A stretch of DNA of 64,000 nucleotides from Anaerolinea thermophila (lineage in GTDB: Bacteria > Chloroflexota > Anaerolineae > Anaerolineales > Anaerolineaceae). Shown here piece after piece: positions 51,984 through 62,047 of the stretch. How positions within the stretch are numbered: the stretch's first letter is position 1; each line of letters starts with the position of its first letter. The stretch lies in the NCBI RefSeq assembly GCF_020723905.1, contig NZ_DYHZ01000003.1:248001-312000 (forward strand), in the 5' to 3' direction. The notes beneath the pieces were generated by a model. It saw only the letters and a program-made list of their open reading frames with translations. It did not search any database and was not told the origin of the DNA. The translations under genes were made by a program, and so were the position numbers.

Positions 51984-52274
51984 ATCAACCCTGAAGGTTG
52001 TTTTTTATTCCAGTGCTATCTTTAGAGAAAAGGAGGTGGTGTCGAAAATGGATCATAGTAAGCAACAAACGGCTGCGGCACCCCTCCTGGTTTCTCATTA
52101 ACCAGTGTGCCGCAGCCACCCAAAGAAGGAGCCGTCTGAAGAAGGCGGCTTCTTCGTTTAAACCTTTTACAACCATTAAGCGGTAAAGCCTCCCGTGAGG
52201 TATTATTAATCCGAAAGGGGCGGATATTCGATCAAATTTTACAGGTACCCTCGAGTATCCGCCTTTTGATCAAC
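51984..52274 (+). ncRNA. Structured 5' leader RNA upstream of the photolyase gene
   Basis: The 352-nt gap 51923-52274 has no long gene but dense structure. (a) CAACC-5-GGTTG then T6 (51986-52006). (b) A 17-codon ORF with a 9-nt SD (52030-52101). (c) GGCTGCGGCAC / GTGCCGCAGCC (52071-52117), whose 5' arm lies in that ORF, with inner stem CTGGT/ACCAG. (d) A 10-bp stem at 52125-52134 / 52146-52155 with one G-U. (e) A 13-bp stem at 52219-52231 / 52251-52263 with one G-U, followed by TTTT, 11 nt before the photolyase ATG. AGGAGG (52031-52036) can pair with CCTCCT (52083-52088). This looks like a cis-regulatory attenuator; ligand or signal unknown. Confidence 0.65.
52048..52101 (+). CDS. 17-aa leader peptide ORF in the photolyase leader
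   Basis: ATG to TAA, peptide MDHSKQQTAAAPLLVSH. The SD AAGGAGGTG (52030-52038) is the best match to anti-SD in this neighbourhood, although the last SD base is 9 nt from ATG. The second half of the ORF forms the 5' arm of the 11-bp stem, so a translating or stalled ribosome would change leader folding. Its sequence shows no run of a single regulatory amino acid (three Ala, two Gln). Confidence 0.55.
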   Translation: MDHSKQQTAAAPLLVSH

Positions 52275-53675
52275 ATGCCAACGATTCTGTGGTGGATTCG
52301 CCGCGATTTACGCCTTCATGATCATCCAGCCCTTGATTATGCTTTACAGCGAGGCAGGGTAATTCCTGTGTTTATTCTGGATGAAGCATTGCTAAAGAAC
52401 GATGCCCCTTACCGAAAAAACTTTCTCTTTTCCGGGTTAAGAGATTTAGATGCAGAATTGCGAAAAAAAGGAAGCAAACTCGTCCTTCGCAGGGGAGAGC
52501 CTCTGGTTGAACTGTACCGGTTAGTTCAGGAAACCTCAGCAGATGAAATTGTTGCTCTGGAGGATTATTCCCCTTATGCCCGCATCAGAGATGAACGTAT
52601 TGCAAAATCTCTCCCCTTACGCCTTTTTGCTGGAGAGACGGTCTTTCCCCCATACATGGTGGTGAAATCAGATGGAACCCCCTACACCGTTTTCACCCCA
52701 TTCAGCAAGGCTTGGAAAGCGCTTCCTTTCGTTTCACCGTCCGGTTTATCACTTCCCGAACGTTTTCCTTCCATCCCTGACGAGATTTTGTCTTTTCCTT
52801 TTCCTGAGGCATCCTCACCAGAAGGATTCCTTCCCGGTGAAACGGAAGCCATAAATCGCATGGAGAGATTTCTCGCAGGAACGGTTGGTCAATATGCCGA
52901 ATCCCGCAATCGCTTAGACCAGGAAGGCACCTCCATGCTCTCACCCTATTTTCGTTTTGGCATGCTTTCTCCCCGAATGGCGGTCTCTCGAGTCTGGAAA
53001 CTATTGCAGGAACCGCTTCTGCCCGAAGAGAAGAAAGGGTGCGAAACCTGGTTGAATGAACTTATCTGGCGCGAATTTTATATATCTATTTTGTATCATT
53101 TTCCCCATGTACTCAAAATGGCTTTCAACCCTGCACTCCGAGCCATTGAATGGAGGAATGCTTCCAACGAACTGGAGGCATGGAAAGCAGGGATGACGGG
53201 TTACCCGGTTGTGGATGCGGCCATGCGTCAGTTGAGAGCAACAGGGTGGATGCATAATCGAGCGCGGATGATCGTTGCTTCTTTCCTGAGCAAGGATTTG
53301 CTGATCAATTGGCAGGAAGGGGAACACTGGTTCATGCAATGGCTGATAGATGGCGACCCCGCCTCAAATAACGGAGGATGGCAGTGGACAGCCGGGGTAG
53401 GCACCGATGCAGCTCCGTACTTTCGAATTTTTAATCCGGTCCTGCAAAGTGCCCGGTTCGACCCTCATGGCCTCTATATCAGAAAATGGGTGCCGGAGTT
53501 GCGCAACGTTCCTGAGCAATACATCCACTCCCCCTGGACGATGCCTGTTTCTCTCCAATCCTCATTGGGTATCCACATTGGCAAAGATTATCCTGTTCCA
53601 ATTGTAATGCACCATGAGACCAGGACTCGGGTGTTGGAGGCTTACCGTAAGTCTCAGAAAACATATACTTCCTGA
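52275..53675 (+). CDS. phr: Class I CPD photolyase/cryptochrome family
   Basis: 466 aa. N-terminal photolyase alpha/beta domain (ILWWIRRDLRLHDHPALDYAL) and C-terminal FAD domain with WLNELIWREFYISILYHFP, GYPVVDAAMRQLRATGWMHNRARM (in parts), NGGWQWTAGVGTDAAPYFRIFNP. Light-driven repair of cyclobutane pyrimidine dimers is the usual activity; a 6-4 or cryptochrome role is less likely. ATG 52275 has no SD: the preceding bases are the 3' arm and T tail of a hairpin, so translation or transcription through the leader is probably the control point. TTG 52266 is the in-frame alternative. Confidence 0.93.
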   Translation: MPTILWWIRRDLRLHDHPALDYALQRGRVIPVFILDEALLKNDAPYRKNFLFSGLRDLDAELRKKGSKLVLRRGEPLVELYRLVQETSADEIVALEDYSPYARIRDERIAKSLPLRLFAGETVFPPYMVVKSDGTPYTVFTPFSKAWKALPFVSPSGLSLPERFPSIPDEILSFPFPEASSPEGFLPGETEAINRMERFLAGTVGQYAESRNRLDQEGTSMLSPYFRFGMLSPRMAVSRVWKLLQEPLLPEEKKGCETWLNELIWREFYISILYHFPHVLKMAFNPALRAIEWRNASNELEAWKAGMTGYPVVDAAMRQLRATGWMHNRARMIVASFLSKDLLINWQEGEHWFMQWLIDGDPASNNGGWQWTAGVGTDAAPYFRIFNPVLQSARFDPHGLYIRKWVPELRNVPEQYIHSPWTMPVSLQSSLGIHIGKDYPVPIVMHHETRTRVLEAYRKSQKTYTS

Positions 53676-53758
53676 AAAAATTACTGGCTTTTTTGATTGC
53701 CTTTGATTCCTGAAGTCATGTCATAATCACAGGAGATTCTTTTATGGGAGGAACTGAT

Positions 53759-54745
53759 ATGATTCCAAATCAGTGGTATGTCGTTTTGGAATCCAGAGAA
53801 GTTCGAAAGGGACAACCGGTTGGTGTCATTCGAATGGGGGAGAAAATGGTGTTCTGGCGTCGCAAAGATGGTAAAGTGGTGTGCATGTCCGATCGTTGTC
53901 CCCATCTTGGAGCAAGTTTATCTGGTGGAAAAGTGGCGGATGACCATCTGGCTTGTCCGTTCCATGCGTTTGAATTTGATTCTACCGGCGCATGCAGATA
54001 CATCCCCGCCCTTGGAAGAAACGGTGTTCCTCCAAAAGCCATGCGGGTAAAATCTTATCCCACTTATGAGGCGCACGGATTCATTTGGATTTACTGGGGA
54101 GAACCTCAAGGCTCACTAACACCTCCCAAATTCTTTGACATTGATGAAACCTTTTCTTATGCAGGTTACAGGCAGATGTGGAATGTGCATTATTCCAGAA
54201 TGGTGGAAAACCAGTTGGATGTGATGCATCTGCCACACGTACACACAGATACCATAGGCAGAGGAAAGCGCGTGGTGGTAGATGGACCTCTCGTAAAAGT
54301 AGAGGATGGTGTGTTAAAGGTGTGGGTTTTCAATCGAAAAGATGATGGAAATCCACCGCGCCGAGCGGACGACCTGGTGATGCCTGATCGTCCACCCTTC
54401 CTGGAATTTATCTTCCCTAACCTCTGGCAAAATCGAATCAGTCCGGATTTCCGGATTGTAGTGGCATTTGTTCCGGTGGATGAAGAGCATGGAATGTTTT
54501 ACTTAAGACAGTACCAGCGATTTGTCCGTGTGCCGGTGCTTCGAGAGATTGTGAACTGGTTTGGGGTTCTGGCAAGTCATCATATCGCTGAGCAAGATCG
54601 CAGGGTAGTGAATACCCAGTTACCTAAAAAGTCCTCTTTACGGGGAGAAGATAAGCCTATTCAGTGCGATAATGCGGTATTAACCTATCGAAGGGTTCGC
54701 GAGGAGTTGATTGAAAAAGCCAGAAATCCCGAAAATCAAGCATAG
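53759..54745 (+). CDS. Rieske non-haem iron oxygenase
   Basis: 328 aa. Rieske [2Fe-2S] ligands C47-x-H49 and C66-x2-H69 (CPHLGAS and CPFHAFEFD). The mononuclear iron motif N151-x2-D154-x2-H157-x4-H162 (ENQLDVMHLPHVH) is intact. It resembles the pheophorbide-oxygenase/aromatic ring hydroxylase branch; substrate unknown. Start 53759 (MIPNQWYVVL) has GGAGGA at 6 nt, but ATG 53744 with AGGAG at 8 nt is also possible. It follows the photolyase by 83 nt and converges on plsY 3 nt away. Being beside crt genes, it could act on a carotenoid or porphyrin; that is inference. Confidence 0.88.
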   Translation: MIPNQWYVVLESREVRKGQPVGVIRMGEKMVFWRRKDGKVVCMSDRCPHLGASLSGGKVADDHLACPFHAFEFDSTGACRYIPALGRNGVPPKAMRVKSYPTYEAHGFIWIYWGEPQGSLTPPKFFDIDETFSYAGYRQMWNVHYSRMVENQLDVMHLPHVHTDTIGRGKRVVVDGPLVKVEDGVLKVWVFNRKDDGNPPRRADDLVMPDRPPFLEFIFPNLWQNRISPDFRIVVAFVPVDEEHGMFYLRQYQRFVRVPVLREIVNWFGVLASHHIAEQDRRVVNTQLPKKSSLRGEDKPIQCDNAVLTYRRVREELIEKARNPENQA

Positions 54746-54748
54746 GAC

Positions 54749-55360
54749 TTATCCATTTTTTCTTTTCTTGAAAACGGTTCGAATTTGTGGAGCCGTTTTC
54801 AATTCGCTGGCGTGTTTACCGATGAGAAACAGAGTGTTGAGAGCCCAAACACTCAGAAGAAGTGGATTGGGATGGTATAAAACCAGGTAGGTGAAAACAC
54901 CCAGCTGGCTAAACAAAACCACCCACGCATGAGGCTGGAGAAAGTAGATTCCCACTGCCATGAACAGCCCAAGGATAATTGGAATTTCTCCCAGGGTCAG
55001 CCCAATCCACATGCCAAACGTGGATGCAATGGCTTTTCCCCCTCTCCCTTTGAGAAGAGGCGAAAACATGTGTCCAAGAACGGGAGAAAGTGAAATCAGG
55101 AGCATCCATACAAAAGGGGGGTGAACAAAGAAATGAACCCATCCAACAGGAATTGCGGCTTTAAAAACATCCAACACCAGTGCCAGGGCACCACTCCATT
55201 TTCCCCCCGCCCGAAACAGGTTCGTAGCGCCTGGGTTTCCATCCCCAACCTGCCGTATGTCCGAATGAAACAGCCACTTACCCAGCAAATATGAATAGGG
55301 GATACTTCCGGAGAGAAATCCGATGCACCCCCAGATGAAATATTGAAGATGAGAACTCAT
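54749..55360 (-). CDS. plsY: Acyl-phosphate:glycerol-3-phosphate acyltransferase (PlsY-like)
   Basis: 203 aa integral membrane protein. The three PlsY motifs are present: SGSIPYSYLLGKW, GDGNPGATN, and GHMFSPLLKGRGGKAIA. It makes lysophosphatidate for membrane lipids. Last gene of crtI-crtB-plsY, with ATGA overlap to crtB. PlsY in a carotenoid operon is unusual and may couple pigment and membrane synthesis, or be a second, pathway-specific copy. Confidence 0.92.
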   Translation of the reverse strand: MSSHLQYFIWGCIGFLSGSIPYSYLLGKWLFHSDIRQVGDGNPGATNLFRAGGKWSGALALVLDVFKAAIPVGWVHFFVHPPFVWMLLISLSPVLGHMFSPLLKGRGGKAIASTFGMWIGLTLGEIPIILGLFMAVGIYFLQPHAWVVLFSQLGVFTYLVLYHPNPLLLSVWALNTLFLIGKHASELKTAPQIRTVFKKRKNG

Positions 55361-56265
55361 TTTTCTTGTGTTTGAAGAATTTTTTTAGAATTTGAAAGTT
55401 GTTTTACCTTCCATAAAATTCCCGGCAGCAGCGCAATTTTTTTCCATCCACTGGTATGAGCCCGGATCGAGTATACACGGTACTCGTTTTTTTCAATTTC
55501 GTCAAGAATGGCGCGGTAGAGAAGTGCGGCTGCACCAACTGCTGGACGGGCTGTTTCGCTCAGATATGCGATTCCAGGAAGCGCTTGCAGATAAAGAGCC
55601 CGGGTTCTGGAAATTTCAAATTTCATGAGTTCAATAAAACGCTCATCATAAACACGCTCGAGGATCTCTTGAGGGGTCAGGCTAAACCTTTTAAGGTCTT
55701 CTACAGGAAGATATACGCGATTTCGCTGGGCATCTTCTCCGATATCCCTCAAAATATTGGTCATTTGGAGAGCAATTCCCAATTGAATGGCATAGGGGGC
55801 AGCCTGCTGGAAACTTGCCCCCTTTGCCAGTCCAATAATGGGAAGTGCCAGAAGCCCTACGGTTGAAGCAACCCGGTAGCAATATGTCTGGAGTGCTTCA
55901 AAGGTTGGGTAGAACTGAAAATTCAGGTCCATTTCAATCCCATCCAGCAGTTCTTTTTCGTACTCACGATTAATGGGATATGCTTCCCGGACCTGTGCCC
56001 AGGCTTTCAGTACCGGATTGGTTTGTTCATCTGAGGATAGACCGACAGATGCTCTCCATGCATTCAGATCATTCAGAGTAGTTTGCTCTCGATCAACGAG
56101 ATCATCACTTGCCCGACAAAATGCATAGAGGGCCCGGATGGCATACCGCTTTGTGGGAGGGAGCAGAGCCGTTGCAAAGTAAAAAGTCTTGGAATGCTCC
56201 CGAATGATTTGCTCTAAAAGCATGGTAGCGGTGGCATCCTGTTGGGCAAGGATGGTTACAGACAT
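55357..56265 (-). CDS. crtB: Phytoene (squalene) synthase
   Basis: 302 aa. Head-to-head condensation of prenyl diphosphates. First Asp-rich motif D54-x3-D58 (ASDDLVD), second D174-x3-D178 (NILRDIGEDAQRNRVYLP), and HSKTFYFAT at the N-terminus. GGAGG 5 nt before ATG. 15 nt after crtI and ATGA-coupled to plsY. With crtI downstream chemistry it is phytoene rather than squalene synthase. Confidence 0.95.
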   Translation of the reverse strand: MSVTILAQQDATATMLLEQIIREHSKTFYFATALLPPTKRYAIRALYAFCRASDDLVDREQTTLNDLNAWRASVGLSSDEQTNPVLKAWAQVREAYPINREYEKELLDGIEMDLNFQFYPTFEALQTYCYRVASTVGLLALPIIGLAKGASFQQAAPYAIQLGIALQMTNILRDIGEDAQRNRVYLPVEDLKRFSLTPQEILERVYDERFIELMKFEISRTRALYLQALPGIAYLSETARPAVGAAALLYRAILDEIEKNEYRVYSIRAHTSGWKKIALLPGILWKVKQLSNSKKILQTQEK

Positions 56266-56280
56266 TTCTACCTCCAGTTC

Positions 56281-57762
56281 TCAGGAAGATCTCCCGAGGA
56301 TTAACTTCTCCGCAATAATTGAAGAGGAGAGCACTCCTGGTAATCCTGCTCCAGGATGAGTTCCGGCGCCGACAAAATACAAGTTCTCGAAATCTTCAGA
56401 TTGGTTATGGGGCCGGAACCATGCAGATTGAGTCAAAATGGGTTCCACTGAGAAAGCCGCCCCCCGGAAACTGTTCAGTGTATTTTCAAAGTGGAGAGGA
56501 TCAATATAGTGCTCTGCGACAATGTTTGCGCGCAGGTCAGGTAAGTAATTTTCTTCCAGGAACTTTAGAATGCGGTCCTTGTAAATGGGTGCCATGGTTT
56601 CCCAGTCAATATCGCCTTTCAGATGGGGAACAGGCGAAAGAACATAAAAGGATTCACATCCTTCTGGTGCCATAGATGGGTCGGTAATGGTGGGCATATG
56701 CAGGTAAAGCGAAAAATCATCTGCAAGTACTTTGCGGCGGAAAATATCATCCAGCAAGCCTTTATACCGACTGCTGAGGATGATATTATGATGGGCTAAC
56801 CGGCTTTCCAGGTATCGTCTCTTTGTCCCAAAGTAGATGACAAACAGAGACATGCTGTAGCGCATTCGTTCATAGCGGGTGTTCGTGTTCACCTTTCGAT
56901 ATCTTGCCGGGATGAGATTGCGATATGTCCAGGCTACGTCTGCGTTGCTGATAACAGCATCGGCGTTGTGAACAGAACCATCCCTCAACCGGATTCCACT
57001 GACCCGACGATCCCCGGAAACCAGAATTTCTTCCACTTCCGCGTTCAGGTGGATTTTTCCACCCAATTCTTCAATCAGACGTGTCATGGCATCCACAATG
57101 GCTCCGGTTCCTCCCATGGCATACCAGACGCCCCATTCCCGCTCCAGATAATGGATCATGGTATAAATGCTGGTCACTTCAAACGGGTTTCCGCCTACCA
57201 GCAAGGGATGAAAAGAAAAGACCATGCGCAGGAATGGATGTTTAACGAACTGTGAGACATATTGATAAACACTTTTATAAGATTGAAGTTTTACTAGGTC
57301 GGGCGCAATTCGCAACATATCTTGAATATGCAGGAAAGGCTCAGAGGCTAATTCCACAAACCCTTTTTGAAAGATGGGCTTTGTGGTTTGAATGAAACGT
57401 TCATATCCAGATTTGTCTTCAGGGTTCCACTTCTCAATCTCTTTTAGGATGAACTGTGGATCGCCGTTGTAATCAAACTGGTTACCCTGGTGATCGAAAA
57501 TCCGGTAAAACGGATCCACCGGCACAAATTTCACATAATCTTCCCGGTTTCGACCTGCCAGAGCAAAGATCTCATCGAACATCCAGGGAGCGGTGATAAC
57601 TGTGGGACCCCCATCAAACTTAAACCCGTTGATTTCATAGACATATGCTCTGCCCCCCGGTTTATCGCGTTTTTCAAAAATTTCAACTTCAACCCCCCGA
57701 GCCGCAAGGCGGGCTGCGGCGCCTAAACCCCCGAATCCACTGCCAATGATGATGACTTTCAT
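56281..57762 (-). CDS. crtI: Phytoene desaturase CrtI-type
   Basis: 493 aa. FAD dinucleotide-binding start [21 protein letters not shown] (split core [10 protein letters not shown]), [15 protein letters not shown], and C-terminal CrtI signature [17 protein letters not shown]. Converts phytoene to more unsaturated carotenoids such as lycopene. Start 57762 (MKVIIIG) has GGAGGG at 5 nt; in-frame 57813 lies in the operator. TATAAT at 57798-57793 (minus), and the 11-bp repeat array overlaps its -35 position. A related CrtN/CrtO-like activity cannot be excluded. Confidence 0.95.
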
Positions 57763-57792: not shown

Positions 57793-57850
57793 ATTATATA
57801 AAATAAAAGACAACTGTATCTTTTGGTATGGGGTTTGTATAAAGTTGTCT
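57793..57850 (-). promoter_or_regulatory. crtI promoter with CarH-type tandem operator
   Basis: Minus strand -10 TATAAT (57798-57793). Upstream are TACAAA (57839-57834), TACCAA (57828-57823) and TACAGT (57818-57813), spaced 11 and 10 bp, over the expected -35 position. The array is bracketed by AGACAACT (57808-57815) and AGTTGTCT (57843-57850). The 11-bp direct-repeat layout is that of CarH operators. Confidence 0.7.
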
Positions 57851-57857
57851 GGAATTT

Positions 57858-58304
57858 TTAAGACAAAGCAAGGCGAGTGATTTTCTTCCTGCGGTACCAG
57901 AAAAAGAATTTCATGGCAATAGGATTAAATAATAAACGGGTAAAAAGCCCCTGGAGATTGTTGGTGTGCTCAAATTCAATGCGCTCAGTCATTTGCGTTT
58001 CATTAACTGAAAGAGATTTCCACTGGTGATAGTGTTTCCAGTGCCGGAAGGGACCTTTTCGTTGAATATCCAGAAATCCCTCTTGGAATGATACCTGCTG
58101 ATGTTGGGCTTCCCATTCAATAGGCAAAGGTCCAAACCATAACTTGAAATGAGTCACTGAATTTTCGCTAATCGGATCTTGAGAAAGGATTTCAATCCGA
58201 ATACCGGGTGGGGTTAATTGTTTCAAGGCATTGGGTGAAAAGTGAATTTGGGCTATTTTTTCAGCAGGAGCCCGGACGGTGTAGGTGTCAATCAGTTCTT
58301 TCAT
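57858..58304 (-). CDS. SRPBCC (START-like) domain protein
   Basis: 148 aa. N-terminal [28 protein letters not shown] and the later [18 protein letters not shown] are typical of SRPBCC/ligand-binding cyclase-like proteins that hold a hydrophobic ligand. Its start overlaps the 51-aa gene by ATGA. Between the MFS gene and crtI, it probably belongs to the carH1 transcript. Ligand could be a carotenoid or lipid; not shown. Confidence 0.75.
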
Positions 58305-58456
58305 CGTTTTTTTCGTCTACTCATGACAGGACTGCCAACAGGTATCGGCTGTGGAACAGGAGGCTTTTCAAAAAGAGGCGGGATTTCTTTGAGCCAGTTT
58401 TCGACTCGATCAATCAAGCCCTGAAAAGGGGATTTGGAAGTGTTTTTCTTTTTCAT
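58301..58456 (-). CDS. 51-aa basic, proline-rich small protein
   Basis: ATG at 58456, TGA at 58301-58303, 51 codons. It starts MKKKNTSKSPFQGLIDRVEN, has a Pro-rich middle (PPVPQPIPVGSP) and ends MSRRKKR. It begins 13 nt after the MFS stop and its TGA overlaps the SRPBCC ATG (ATGA), so it fills the only gap in the operon in the right frame. No membrane segment. SD is weak (AAAGAAA). No family recognised. Confidence 0.6.
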   Translation of the reverse strand: MKKKNTSKSPFQGLIDRVENWLKEIPPLFEKPPVPQPIPVGSPVMSRRKKR

Positions 58457-58469
58457 CGTAAATTTCTTT

Positions 58470-59699
58470 CTAGTCCATACTGCTGGAACTTTGCACCAGT
58501 GGCCGCATATGGAAAACCATGCGCCAGAAATAAGACCCCAGCCACAACAGGAGAATTGACGCTAAAAATCCTGGTACGGCGGTTCCAATGAAATTCCCAT
58601 AAGTTTTAGAGGCGATTTGAAGAAGGAGTGATCCCAGGGAAGGAGCAAGCACACGGGTCAGGGATTCAAGTGAAGCCGCCAGGCCTAAAATGCCTCCGGT
58701 TTCGACAGAGGCAACGGACTTTGAGAGTGCACTGTTGATGACTGTATTGAGAATACCTCCAGATACAGCAATCGGAAGGAGAGCAATCAGAAGAACAGGA
58801 ATTGATGGTGCCAGAGCCCATACCATCAGAGATACTGCCATGGTGAGAATTGCCGCGAACATCAAATTGATTTCACTGAACCGTTTAGTAATTTTTCCGA
58901 TAAAAACGCCCTGCGTCAGTACCGAAATCAACCCGACATACGCCAGGATATATCCGGTGTCACGGGCCTGGAGGTTGAATCGTTCCAATGCATAGATTGC
59001 AAAGATGGTTTGAAAGAGAGAGAAAGCCAACCCAAAGAAAAATCGGGTATGCAGAAGCGGTCCAACGTATGGACGGCGTAAAGTATCCAGCATGGCTTTG
59101 AGAGTAAGAGGAGGGCGCTGCTGTAGGCTGATGCTTTGACGGCGTTCCGGTGTCAGCGATTCTTTTAACCACAGAAATACCAGCAGAAAATTGATGATGG
59201 AAAGACCGGTTGCCGAGAATGCCGGGTACTCGTAGCCAAACTGGCTGAGTGCTCCTCCAATGGCTGGACCAAGAATAAAGCCCAGGCCAAAAGCGGCCCC
59301 AATCAATCCCAATCCGCGTGCGCGGCTTTGATTGTCGGTAACATCGCTGATATACGCCTGGGCCACGCTGATGTTGGCTGCGGTAAACCCTGCCAGAATT
59401 CGAGAGATAAAGAGCATGGTCAGATTTTGGGCAATTCCCAGGAGGAGAAATCCAAGGGCGTTACCCACAATCGAAATCAGCAGGATGGGGCGCCTTCCAT
59501 AACGATCAGACAGCCTGCCTAAAAAAGGCGCGCCAATGAACTGCGCCAGTGCATAGGAGGCTACCAGCAAACCAATCTGGAACTCGCTGGCTGAAAAACT
59601 CTTTGCCAGATACGGCAGAAGTGGAAGAATTAAACTGAACCCTAACAGGTCAATGAAAACGATGAGAAAAATGGATGACAATGCTTTGTTTTTGAACAT
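58470..59699 (-). CDS. TetA-like MFS efflux transporter
   Basis: 409 aa, 12 hydrophobic helices. Motif A GRLSDRYGRRPILL and motif C-like GFILGPAIGGAL place it with drug:H+ antiporters of the TetA group; N-terminal IFLIVFIDLLGFSLILPLLP is typical. AAAGGTG 5 nt before ATG. 10 nt after carH1, so transcribed with it. It may export a photo-oxidation product or another small molecule; substrate unknown. Confidence 0.9.
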   Translation of the reverse strand: MFKNKALSSIFLIVFIDLLGFSLILPLLPYLAKSFSASEFQIGLLVASYALAQFIGAPFLGRLSDRYGRRPILLISIVGNALGFLLLGIAQNLTMLFISRILAGFTAANISVAQAYISDVTDNQSRARGLGLIGAAFGLGFILGPAIGGALSQFGYEYPAFSATGLSIINFLLVFLWLKESLTPERRQSISLQQRPPLTLKAMLDTLRRPYVGPLLHTRFFFGLAFSLFQTIFAIYALERFNLQARDTGYILAYVGLISVLTQGVFIGKITKRFSEINLMFAAILTMAVSLMVWALAPSIPVLLIALLPIAVSGGILNTVINSALSKSVASVETGGILGLAASLESLTRVLAPSLGSLLLQIASKTYGNFIGTAVPGFLASILLLWLGSYFWRMVFHMRPLVQSSSSMD

Positions 59700-59709
59700 G
59701 GTTACACCT

Positions 59710-60705
59710 TTAAGAGGCTGAATTTCCTTGTGTAGATGTTAAGAGCGATTCGATCCGGGAGACAATTTCTGAGGGACGCATCCCTGTAAGATATATGGCA
59801 GACACGCTGTCCGGTAAGCGGTTGGCATGAAAGGCTTGTCCGCCTAAAACAATCAGAGGCTTTTTCCCTTTGATTTTCTCAAGAATGCGAGGAAGTTCTG
59901 TCAGGTGTAAAGCATTGTGGAAATTATTAGCCGTGAACATGACCAGTTCAGGTCGCAGAGCATTAAGAGTTTCTTCAAGTCGGTCCAGTTTCAGGTCTGG
60001 CCCAAAGTAAATGACATCCCAGCCTCTCCAGCGAAGCATCACAACCAGCATTAAGATTCCAATTTGATGCATTTCTCCCGGAGCACAGGCGGCAAAAATT
60101 TTTGTGGAACGTATAGGTTGGCTTGTTGCTGTCATCATGCTCATCAAGTGTTGCATGACAAACTGAGTGGCAAAGTGTTCCACTGCGATGCTTAATTCTC
60201 CACGATGCCAGCGTTCTCCAATTTCTACCAGTGCAGGAGTGATGATTTCTGTAAGGACCTGATCAACAGAATACAGAGAAAAAGACCTTCTCAGCACTTC
60301 TGTGGCTTGGATTTCATCAAATGAGAGAATCTTTTCGAGAAACTCCTTGCAAAGATGAGTTAATTCTGTCGGAGAGGTGTTGAGCGGCGTGGTAAATGGT
60401 GGAACTGATGGCGTAATAGCCGGATCTTGCCCGTTTTTACGAAGTTCATTCAAGTATTCTACGGCTCTGCTGATGTGCATGCCGGAATCAATTTGTGCTT
60501 TGAGCCATCGAAGCGTGCGTAAATCATATTCCGAATACAAACGATATCCCTGATGCCCTCTTCGGGGAGAAGGTAATCCGTAACGTCTCTCCCATGCTCG
60601 AATCGTAACGGGAAGCAACCCTACCAGTTGAGAGATGGCTTTAATGTTATATACCGGTATATCGTTTTTACTGTTAGAGTGATTTTTTTCACTGCTCATT
60701 GCCAT
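59710..60705 (-). CDS. carH: CarH-type MerR/B12-binding light-responsive repressor (copy 1)
   Basis: 331 aa. MerR helix-turn-helix residues about 17-90 (YNIKAISQLVGLLPVTIRAWERRYG, given as the family core TIRAWERRYG), linker, four-helix B12 cap, Rossmann B12 domain. The CarH-diagnostic W-x9-E-H motif is W166...E176-H177, and His167 follows the Trp as in Thermus CarH His132. The cobalamin His motif E-x-H-x2-G is EMHQIG with H213. In CarH proteins adenosylcobalamin drives tetramer formation and repression in the dark; light breaks the Co-C bond and frees DNA. AAGGA 5 nt before ATG. Followed by MFS, small gene and SRPBCC. Confidence 0.92.
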   Translation of the reverse strand: MAMSSEKNHSNSKNDIPVYNIKAISQLVGLLPVTIRAWERRYGLPSPRRGHQGYRLYSEYDLRTLRWLKAQIDSGMHISRAVEYLNELRKNGQDPAITPSVPPFTTPLNTSPTELTHLCKEFLEKILSFDEIQATEVLRRSFSLYSVDQVLTEIITPALVEIGERWHRGELSIAVEHFATQFVMQHLMSMMTATSQPIRSTKIFAACAPGEMHQIGILMLVVMLRWRGWDVIYFGPDLKLDRLEETLNALRPELVMFTANNFHNALHLTELPRILEKIKGKKPLIVLGGQAFHANRLPDSVSAIYLTGMRPSEIVSRIESLLTSTQGNSAS

Positions 60706-60733
60706 TTGTGGTCCTTAATCCCATAATACCCTC

Positions 60734-60784
60734 ATCATACCCTGTGTTTAGGGTAAGGGAAAAACTTTTTGTATAATGTTTGTA
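60734..60784 (-). promoter_or_regulatory. carH1 promoter region with TACAAA tandem repeat
   Basis: Minus strand TACAAA at 60784-60779 and again at 60773-60768, exactly 11 bp apart. A candidate -10 is TATGAT (60739-60734), with its -35 position just downstream of the repeats. A small dyad ACCCT-N6-AGGGT lies between. Confidence 0.6.
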
Positions 60785-60785
60785 C

Positions 60786-61769
60786 CTACTGGATTCTGTT
60801 GCGATGATTGGGTTTCCCTGCAGAATCTGCAAGCAATTCGTTAATCTTTTCCAACCCTTTCTCCAGAGTATTGCCAAGGTAAATACCCGCAACTTTTTGT
60901 CGAATCTCAGGGTGGTTGTCAAAACCTCTCCCTCCATAACAAAACAGGGGAGGACGGCGCAACATTGCCAGCCTTTGTTGAGCATTTTTTAATTCCATAG
61001 CTGACGAACTGGAAGAGGCGGACAAAATAATCATTGCCGGATGTTCATAAGAAGCAAAATCAACCAGGTCCTCTATAGGCACATCGGGGCCCAGATATTC
61101 CACCCGATATCCCTGGGCTCGCAGTAGGGTCGAAAGCATTAATGCTCCCAGTTCGTGTTGCTCAAAGGGGGCGCATCCAACAAGAATGTAAGAGGAATTT
61201 TTTCGAATGGGATAAGTCTGGAAAAGACCGAGCAATTTACCTTTCAGGAAATTGCTGGCAAAATGTTCGGTGGCTATGGTGATTTTTCCCAGATACCAAT
61301 CTTCCCCAATCTGAGTAAGCGTTGGAACCAGAATCTCCATAAATAAGGGGATGAGATCGTATTCTTCAACAGCCTGTTTAAACAATTCGCTGGCGCGTAT
61401 CTCATTGTGGGCGAGAAAGGCTTGATAGAGGAATTTAACAAGTTCTTCCTTCTGGTGGATTGGCTGGCGCGTGACTTTTTGTGGGGCGGTTGGGGTCACC
61501 TCTGGCATAATACCCTGGTTCATCATGGCGCGCAATTCTGAAACCGCATTGCTGATGGAAACCCCGGCATCCACACGGCTTTTCAGCCACCGCAGGATGG
61601 CTACATCGCGTTCAGAATAGAGGCGGTAGTGATTGTCAGCACGTTGTGGATTGAGCACTTCATGACGCCTTTCCCATGCTCGCAGTGTAACAGGGCGAAT
61701 GCCCGTTTGTATGGAAACCGCCTTTATCGTGTACTGGGGAATATCGGGTAAGTCAGCAATTGTAGCCAT
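60786..61769 (-). CDS. CarH-like MerR/B12-binding regulator (copy 2, Trp-Tyr variant)
   Basis: 327 aa, same architecture as copy 1: MerR DNA-binding domain (YTIKAVSIQTGIRPVTLRAW core), cap, and cobalamin domain. The cap motif W-x9-E-H is W158...E168-H169 but the residue after Trp is Tyr159, not His. The cobalamin His motif is EQHELG with H205. In Thermus CarH the His after the Trp becomes the second cobalt ligand after light; this copy cannot make that bond the same way. AGGAG 6 nt before ATG. TTGTAT-N17-TATACT promoter upstream. Either a photoreceptor with different recovery or a CarA-like partner. Confidence 0.88.
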   Translation of the reverse strand: MATIADLPDIPQYTIKAVSIQTGIRPVTLRAWERRHEVLNPQRADNHYRLYSERDVAILRWLKSRVDAGVSISNAVSELRAMMNQGIMPEVTPTAPQKVTRQPIHQKEELVKFLYQAFLAHNEIRASELFKQAVEEYDLIPLFMEILVPTLTQIGEDWYLGKITIATEHFASNFLKGKLLGLFQTYPIRKNSSYILVGCAPFEQHELGALMLSTLLRAQGYRVEYLGPDVPIEDLVDFASYEHPAMIILSASSSSSAMELKNAQQRLAMLRRPPLFCYGGRGFDNHPEIRQKVAGIYLGNTLEKGLEKINELLADSAGKPNHRNRIQ

Positions 61770-61800
61770 AGAATGCTCCTGTTAGACAAATCCTATCATT

Positions 61801-61851
61801 TAGGTACGGATTGTATAAAGATAGTATAGTGTTTATAGGTTTAAAATACAA
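61801..61851 (-). promoter_or_regulatory. carH2 promoter with overlapping 11-bp repeats
   Basis: Minus strand -35 TTGTAT (61851-61846), 17-nt spacer, -10 TATACT (61828-61823). Repeats TATAAA (61837-61832), TACTAT (61826-61821) and TACAAT (61815-61810) are 11 bp apart and cover the -10, with TACCTA (61806-61801) 9 bp on. Suggests negative autoregulation. Confidence 0.62.
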
Positions 61852-61884
61852 TAGGGAAAGCCAGTTTCTAATTAAACTCTCATG

Positions 61885-61901
61885 TTTGTAAAATGTTTGT
61901 A
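61885..61901 (-). promoter_or_regulatory. Near-perfect TACAAACAT tandem repeat between carH2 and the methyltransferase
   Basis: Minus strand TACAAACAT starting at 61901 and again at 61890, 11 bp apart and identical over 9 bases. It is the cleanest copy of the putative CarH site, 34 nt upstream of the carH2 -35 and in the middle of the 278-nt AT-rich gap 61770-62047, so it could also serve the methyltransferase. Confidence 0.6.
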
Positions 61902-62047
61902 TACATTTCATGGTATCCGATTTGTCTTGTTGGTAACATATACCTTCTGCAATTTACTGAATAATTATTTTATTTTTATGATTTGGCTCTTAGGTTTTTT
62001 GCACTTTTTGGTATTGAAGTATCGAAAATACGGTTAAAATACCTTTC

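Follow-up and report, generated by a model that had tools for sequence, protein, structure and literature searches.

A probable CarH-type, light-released regulon in the Anaerolineaceae, with two diverged CarH paralogues and an unlinked HMG-CoA reductase gene among its likely targets

We describe a gene cluster of Anaerolinea thermophila that encodes two proteins related to the B12-dependent photoreceptor CarH next to carotenoid genes, and that we read, with a probability of roughly three in four, as the centre of a CarH-type, adenosylcobalamin (AdoCbl)-dependent and light-released regulon, in which CarH1 would be the sensor and CarH2 a diverged co-repressor. The cluster lies in a stretch of 64,000 nucleotides (contig NZ_DYHZ01000003.1, positions 248,001 to 312,000; hereafter the window, whose own numbering is used below) of a 3.29 Mb genome of the Anaerolineaceae, a family of non-phototrophic, mostly anaerobic Chloroflexota. 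On the minus strand of the window the genes follow in the order carH2, carH1, mfs, a 148-aa open reading frame (ORF), crtI, crtB and a plsY-like ORF. The features that bear directly on this reading are:

60786..61769, minus strand: carH2, 327 aa, with MerR, B12-binding_2 and B12-binding domains (Pfam, PDB, residues, fold)
59710..60705, minus strand: carH1, 331 aa, with the same three domains (Pfam, PDB, residues, fold)
56281..57762, minus strand: crtI, phytoene desaturase family (NCBIfam TIGR02734, 609.5 bits against a cut-off of 238.1; Pfam)
61887..61903, minus strand: predicted distal operator of carH2, TATACA-N5-TTTACA, both half-sites full and 11 bp apart
61812..61828, minus strand: proximal imperfect repeat of carH2, TATACA and TATACT at 11 bp, weak
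60770..60786, minus strand: predicted operator of carH1, GGTACA (pseudorepeat) and TATACA (full half-site) at 11 bp
57815..57841, minus strand: candidate operator of crtI, TATACA, CATACC and GATACA with spacings of 11 and 10 bp, ahead of TATAAT at 57793-57798

The assignment of both proteins to the CarH type, as made in the original prediction, is supported by sequence and predicted fold. Both have all three domains in Pfam, those of CarH1 all scoring above the cut-offs, and in the PDB both come closest to Thermus CarH/LitR (1.1e-31 for CarH1 and 7.8e-28 for CarH2 to 5c8d). The predicted models (mean predicted local distance difference test scores of 84.9 and 85.5) have 5c8e and 5c8d as their top fold matches, with an identity of about 26-30% in the fold alignments; the root-mean-square deviation of the full-length Foldseek matches is large because the domain arrangement differs, and the B12 part alone fits at ~2-3 Å in many rows. 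CarH is likewise the best NCBIfam family of both, though below its cut-off. In a quick maximum-likelihood tree of 113 rows, from which those over 420 aa and L109-L130 had been left out beforehand, 27 CarH1 and 53 CarH2 sequences form two groups with Shimodaira-Hasegawa-like approximate likelihood ratio supports of 99 and 96.

These two clades differ in the residues of the known photochemistry (positions in Thermus numbering). W131 (27/27 CarH1, 52/53 CarH2) and E141 (27/27, 50/53), which contact the adenosyl group in Thermus CarH (PMC10442372), are kept in nearly all members of both, as are H142 (27/27, 52/53) and H177 (26/27, 47/53). H132 is kept in 24/27 CarH1 vs 2/53 CarH2 (39 of which have Tyr), G174 in 24/27 vs 4/53, and P203 shows the reverse, with 5/27 vs 48/53. 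The CarH1 of the window has His132, which serves as upper ligand in the light state of Thermus CarH, together with GxxH and all of W131, E141, H142, E175, H177 and G180 of the Wx9EH and D/ExHxxG motifs; of the full light signature GxxW, EH, GxxH and GxxxP it shows the first three and lacks the last, position 203 being Lys. The CarH2 of the window keeps Wx9EH and the D/ExHxxG part including His177, and lacks His132 and GxxH, with Tyr at 132 and Phe at 174. Since CarH2 is without His132 and Gly174, the two are not equivalent photoreceptors; thus, of the two photoreceptors originally proposed, CarH1 retains the photochemical residues whereas CarH2 does so in part. The identity of the window pair is 48% over 77 columns in the DNA-binding parts and 29% over 195 in the B12 parts, a pattern that would fit shared DNA recognition with diverged sensing. 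In the CarH2 of five loci without carH1 (L065-L068, L164) His177 is also lost, with Asp or Arg in its place, and therefore the usual B12 binding is probably gone. As judged by eye, carH2 follows a long lipoprotein-like ORF in L066, L059, L064 and L162; the CarH2 proteins of the latter three keep His177.

Published CarH operators consist of tandem 11-bp repeats nnnnTnnACAn, of which Thermus CarH uses three half-sites (PMC9304148). TACAAA-like words at 11-bp spacing had been proposed upstream of crtI, carH1 and carH2: the word TACAAA-N5-TACAAA is exact at 60768-60784 and 61885-61901, on the same strand as the genes, and these two stand, while the repeats at 57813-57839 and 61801-61837 proved weak. 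The former of these weak regions holds one full TnnACA (57836-57841) and less perfect repeats with spacings of 11 and 10 bp; the latter has 61812-61817 as its one full word in 11-bp register, with a near-match at 61823-61828, and is rated weak because it has a single full half-site. In terms of TnnACA, a full tandem pair lies upstream of carH2 (the distal site, equivalent to 61885-61901) and, elsewhere in the genome, upstream of mvaA and of an alpha/beta hydrolase gene; carH1 and crtI each have a full half-site with a pseudorepeat, which we counted as CarH-operator type too. By eye only, GATACA at 57815-57820 occupies a plausible -35 of crtI, 16 bp from the TATAAT. A different 11-bp tandem repeat, CATAATACCCT/CATCATACCCT, is found at 60722-60743, between the carH1 operator and the start of carH1.

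The 11-bp arrangement recurs in relatives, mainly Anaerolineaceae. When full TnnACA pairs were counted at every spacing in the 200 bp before each gene (starts extrapolated from tblastn, two duplicate loci dropped), 11 bp alone stands out. Such pairs precede 13/34 carH1-like genes in sense and four in antisense orientation, 6/53 carH2 genes in sense and 9/53 in antisense, and 5/15 crtI genes in sense. On either strand this amounts to 15/34 carH1-like upstreams against a mean of 0.24 (maximum 3) in dinucleotide shuffles, 15/53 for carH2 against 0.55 (maximum 3), and 5/15 for crtI against 0.05 (maximum 1). No 11-bp pair occurs at the crtB, mfs, srpbcc, rieske, photolyase or plsY upstreams; one antisense pair occurs among six mtase upstreams, and the mtase upstream of the window overlaps that of carH2. 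The repeat consensus, close to T-TnTACAA-A, agrees with the word of the original prediction, and in seven loci both car genes are preceded by tandem 11-bp operators. The constant gene orientation claimed for the words describes the two exact window sites but not the antisense carH2 pairs of relatives. A common regulon of crtI, carH1 and carH2 is supported by recurrence in relatives, and less so by the weak crtI site of the window; neither the carH1 nor the crtI site of this genome counts as a positive, because each combines one full half-site with a pseudorepeat.

A few of the 34 carH1-like genes belong to other lineages of the Chloroflexota, and four are longer CarH-like genes (L157-L160). 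The latter form a class of 442-478 aa that extends the C-terminus by well over 100 residues, in which no further Pfam domain was found for L157 and L159; all four have an 11-bp pair upstream and two have a photolyase within the locus. In five g40 loci (L027, L033, L034, L036, L039) the carH1 upstream shows, by eye, no tandem pair and instead an inverted repeat, GGTTTGTC...GACAAACC, followed in some g40 genomes by T-rich DNA; it can be read either as a terminator or as an alternative operator.

The regulon appears to extend beyond the cluster, further than had been proposed. Two sister genomes carry triple half-sites before the gene for 3-hydroxy-3-methylglutaryl-CoA (HMG-CoA) reductase (Pfam), from which a pair before mvaA of this genome was predicted and then found. 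The single HMG-CoA reductase match of the genome, mvaA, is unlinked to the car cluster, and its site TATACAAACCATGTACA ends 9 bp before the first ATG and 15 bp before a second in-frame ATG. Behind it lies a probable HMG-CoA synthase gene, whose sister protein matches HMG_CoA_synt_C just below cut-off. We then compared the regions before mvaA in 90 genomes, out of 133 that had a match; 30 of these regions came from the searches and 60 were fetched, having been selected by CarH status before their sequence was looked at. The 11-bp pair is present in 6/21 genomes with CarH1, in 0/35 with CarH2 or the long CarH only and in 0/34 without a CarH match (E 1e-20), i.e. 6/21 vs 0/69 (Fisher p 8.7e-5, a value weakened by relatedness). 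Leaving out the two discovery genomes gives 4/19 vs 0/69 (p about 0.002, worked by hand). The carH2 pairs, too, go with the presence of carH1 in the locus (12/25 vs 3/28, p 0.005, some loci being cut short). The operators thus follow the occurrence of CarH1 and not that of CarH2, although lineage confounds the comparison.

Genome-wide, the exact TACAAA-N5-TACAAA word occurs three times against once for the backward control pattern, and the three matches precede carH1, carH2 and the alpha/beta hydrolase gene. With one mismatch allowed the counts are 18 vs 15, no clear enrichment; of 13 other one-mismatch places inspected, six are inside ORFs and seven between or at the ends of ORFs, and no evident light gene was seen among them by eye. 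Within the window, words with up to two mismatches number 9 against a shuffle mean of 5.36 (9 being reached in 8/100 shuffles), and strict TnnACA pairs number 2 against a mean of 1.52, not a clear enrichment. As neither loose nor strict words are clearly enriched there, it is the exact sites and their recurrence in related genomes that carry the case, and not the number of words within the window.

The third exact match (C2:77354-77370) lies 46 bp before the hydrolase start, on the opposite strand, and is followed at a further 11 bp by a third, nearly matching word. Among 30 upstreams of hydrolase homologues five have an 11-bp pair, on the other strand. In L060 a homologue with 43% identity shares a cluster with carH2 and a photolyase, and in four g40 genomes (G139, G142, G144, G146) the homologue lies about 7-9 kb from carH2. 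The hydrolase site occurs in 4/12 genomes with CarH1, the discovery genome among these four, vs 1/18 without, which is not significant (p 0.13).

We infer the following mechanism from these observations and from the known behaviour of CarH. In the dark, AdoCbl-loaded CarH1, probably with CarH2, would bind the tandem 11-bp TnnACA half-sites and repress carH2, carH1 (with mfs and the 148-aa gene as a presumed operon) and crtI-crtB-plsY, as well as the unlinked mvaA (with the probable HMG-CoA synthase gene) and the alpha/beta hydrolase gene. On illumination the AdoCbl of CarH1 would lose its Co-C bond and the oligomer would dissociate, and the levels of CarH1 and CarH2, of the carotenoid enzymes and of mevalonate precursors would rise together. 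As Thermus CarH couples light with oxygen, the switch of an anaerobe may respond to light plus air.

The part played by CarH2 in this scheme admits other readings. Thermus CarH with the H132A exchange is mostly tetrameric after light (PMC10442372), and by analogy CarH2 may be less light-releasable than CarH1. Going further, CarH2 could be a B12-independent repressor of the CarA kind acting at the same operators, with light acting on CarH1 only or an antirepressor freeing CarH2; we regard this as possible though rather doubtful. The low retention of His132 (2/53) and Gly174 (4/53) across the CarH2 clade, with His177 lost in 6/53, would agree with it, and Myxococcus xanthus has the same tandem carA-carH arrangement (PMC9304148), likewise of diverged paralogues in a carotenoid cluster. 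However, the published criterion of CarA is loss of the Trp of Wx9EH with the B12 motif kept: M. xanthus CarA lost this Trp, whereas it is present in the window CarH2, which also retains His177, and in 52/53 CarH2, and CarH2 is therefore not a CarA by that criterion. The H132A result itself is countered by an earlier report, cited in the same paper (PMC10442372), in which the variant disassembled. B12 photoreceptors with other residues at 132 are light-responsive, namely the photocobilins AbDPcob (Tyr) and SasPcob (Gln) and also CtMerR (Arg) (PMC11796333), resembling CarH2 in this respect but not in its additional lack of the Gly of GxxH; in the other phyla sampled, too, position 132 varies freely while the remaining signature residues stay. 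Loss of His132 by itself is hence no proof of light blindness.

Alternatively, the two proteins might constitute one hetero-oligomeric photoreceptor, in which CarH1 holds the light-sensing cofactor and CarH2 caps it in trans, a reading suggested by CarH1 keeping the cofactor residues and having mostly lost Pro203, with the reverse in CarH2. In CtMerR the Pro of GxxxP is supplied by the adjacent subunit and is in contact with the AdoCbl site (PMC11796333). Against it, Pro203 is kept by CarH2 in 26/28 loci showing no carH1, and three CarH1 (L071, L075, L140) carry the full signature, so that we find it improbable. Hardly more credible is a regulon whose signal would be oxygen or the supply of AdoCbl instead of light, with AdoCbl loss derepressing the carotenoid genes. 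CarH does require AdoCbl for DNA binding (PMC9304148), light is coupled with oxygen in Thermus CarH (PMC10442372), and the Anaerolineaceae are anaerobes that often live in the dark; but Trp131, Glu141 and His142 are kept in 27/27 CarH1 and a photolyase lies within the same locus in several relatives. That the words are chance AT-rich promoter sequence would account for the lack of clear enrichment of loose words in the window and of one-mismatch words in the genome, but we consider it very unlikely in view of the 11-bp-only peak in relatives against zero in the control upstreams, the plausible targets behind all three exact matches and the confirmed mvaA prediction.

Several observations weigh against a light-released CarH regulon. 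On the protein side, neither window protein has all four published signature elements, and both miss the NCBIfam CarH equivalog cut-off of 400 bits (CarH1 154.3, CarH2 148.1). The dimer interface of Thermus CarH includes a salt bridge, Arg176-Asp201; CarH1 has Met and CarH2 has Gln at position 176, and with Arg replaced this bridge cannot form alike. As to the sites, only one intergenic site with two full half-sites adjoins the car genes in the window, and no site with three half-sites in tandem was found in this genome. The crtI candidate sits within an inverted repeat (arms 57801-57819/57839-57857, fold z -2.3) that may be a terminator. The sites had been placed over or beside -35/-10 positions, which could not be established: sigma70-like promoters number 7 against 6.8 in shuffles. 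Among relatives, 19/34 carH1-like, 38/53 carH2 and 10/15 crtI upstreams are without a full pair, as are the mvaA upstreams of 15/21 CarH1 genomes, and G006 carries the hydrolase site without a CarH match. Since species share ancestry, the Fisher tests overstate independence, and some of the loci stop short of where carH1 would lie. Lastly, in Herpetosiphon, another member of the Chloroflexota, PMC6210107 describes a CarH gene beside a phytoene synthase gene and a constitutive pigment without light induction.

Apart from that mention, the statement that no characterised example is known in this phylum agrees with the literature searched, outside of which subscription papers mostly fall and in which no study of CarH operators in Chloroflexota was found. 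The closest comparison is Thermus thermophilus CarH (5C8D/5C8E): both proteins here share its MerR, four-helix and Rossmann B12 domains, Wx9EH and His177, and the tandem 11-bp TnnACA half-sites are alike. The present system differs in having mostly two half-sites instead of three, a replaced Arg176, a second diverged CarH alongside and HMG-CoA reductase among its likely targets. Bacillus megaterium CarH/LitR also uses tandem 11-bp half-sites with pseudorepeats, there at -35 or -10 and four in number, without mention of a second paralogue (PMC9304148). Some Cystobacterineae carotenoid clusters, too, hold an HMG-CoA reductase gene (PMC9304148), as in the likely target set here; unlike in these myxobacterial clusters, the gene is here the only match in the genome, unlinked and with an 11-bp site of its own. 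Thus, CarH regulons and the presence of this gene in the carotenoid cluster of some myxobacteria were already known, while the operator set in Chloroflexota, the likely inclusion in it of an HMG-CoA reductase gene outside the cluster, and the split between CarH1 and CarH2 are new. If the CarH-type reading is correct, it places B12 light sensing in the Anaerolineaceae and puts the carotenoid branch and an unlinked mevalonate-supply gene under one light switch. With its tandem CarH1 and CarH2 the family may present another instance of CarH duplication next to the myxobacterial CarA/CarH, so that the ways in which the paralogue of a photoreceptor gives up its chemistry or puts it to new use could be compared directly.

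The remaining members of the cluster are:

58470..59699, minus strand: MFS transporter, conserved cluster member (Pfam MFS_1; synteny)
57858..58304, minus strand: 148-aa ORF, called SRPBCC in the original prediction, conserved in the cluster (synteny)
55357..56265, minus strand: crtB, phytoene/squalene synthase family (Pfam SQS_PSY)
54749..55360, minus strand: plsY-like ORF overlapping the end of crtB (ORF; candidate name from the original prediction)

The 148-aa ORF has no match in Pfam or NCBIfam. On the plus strand of the window a photolyase and a Rieske oxygenase are encoded (52266-54745). In a synteny set of 63 loci (two of them duplicates) and the window, several genera share the order carH2-carH1-mfs-(148 aa)-crtI-crtB, with plsY, Rieske or photolyase present in some, while the loci of other relatives have carH2 without carH1. 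The culturable Thermanaerothrix daxensis (L053) carries the same cluster as the window. Photolyase and Rieske oxygenase accompany the car cluster in several relatives, without an 11-bp pair, and plsY is linked to crtB in three distinct relatives (L071, L075, L140). Among the CarH2 matches listed, the best named ones are from Thermanaerothrix, Anaerolinea, Bellilinea and Ornatilinea. The genome also has two PF01923 cobalamin adenosyltransferase matches.

Across 147 genomes of the family, triple half-sites occur at about 78 places against 29 for the backward controls. Eleven of these were fetched, picked for recurrence in sister genomes, proximity to car genes or a strong look, and besides mvaA they include sites at an ORF that resembles TspO by eye, at a fasciclin gene accompanied by a CrtC-like one, and in g40 genomes. 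The TspO-like ORF has no Pfam match and a TspO homologue search of this genome gave none; its two polyprenyl synthase loci have no 11-bp pair. The fasciclin site (L209:2349-2376) lies upstream of that gene and beside the CrtC-like gene, whose match to the CrtC model is below cut-off, next to carH2 in G032. In four g40 genomes (L201-L204) a triple half-site is kept at the start of a 420-aa ORF, with a sigma-factor-like gene (Pfam for L201 only) starting on its other side in L201 and L202, an arrangement that recalls, by analogy, CarQ of M. xanthus.

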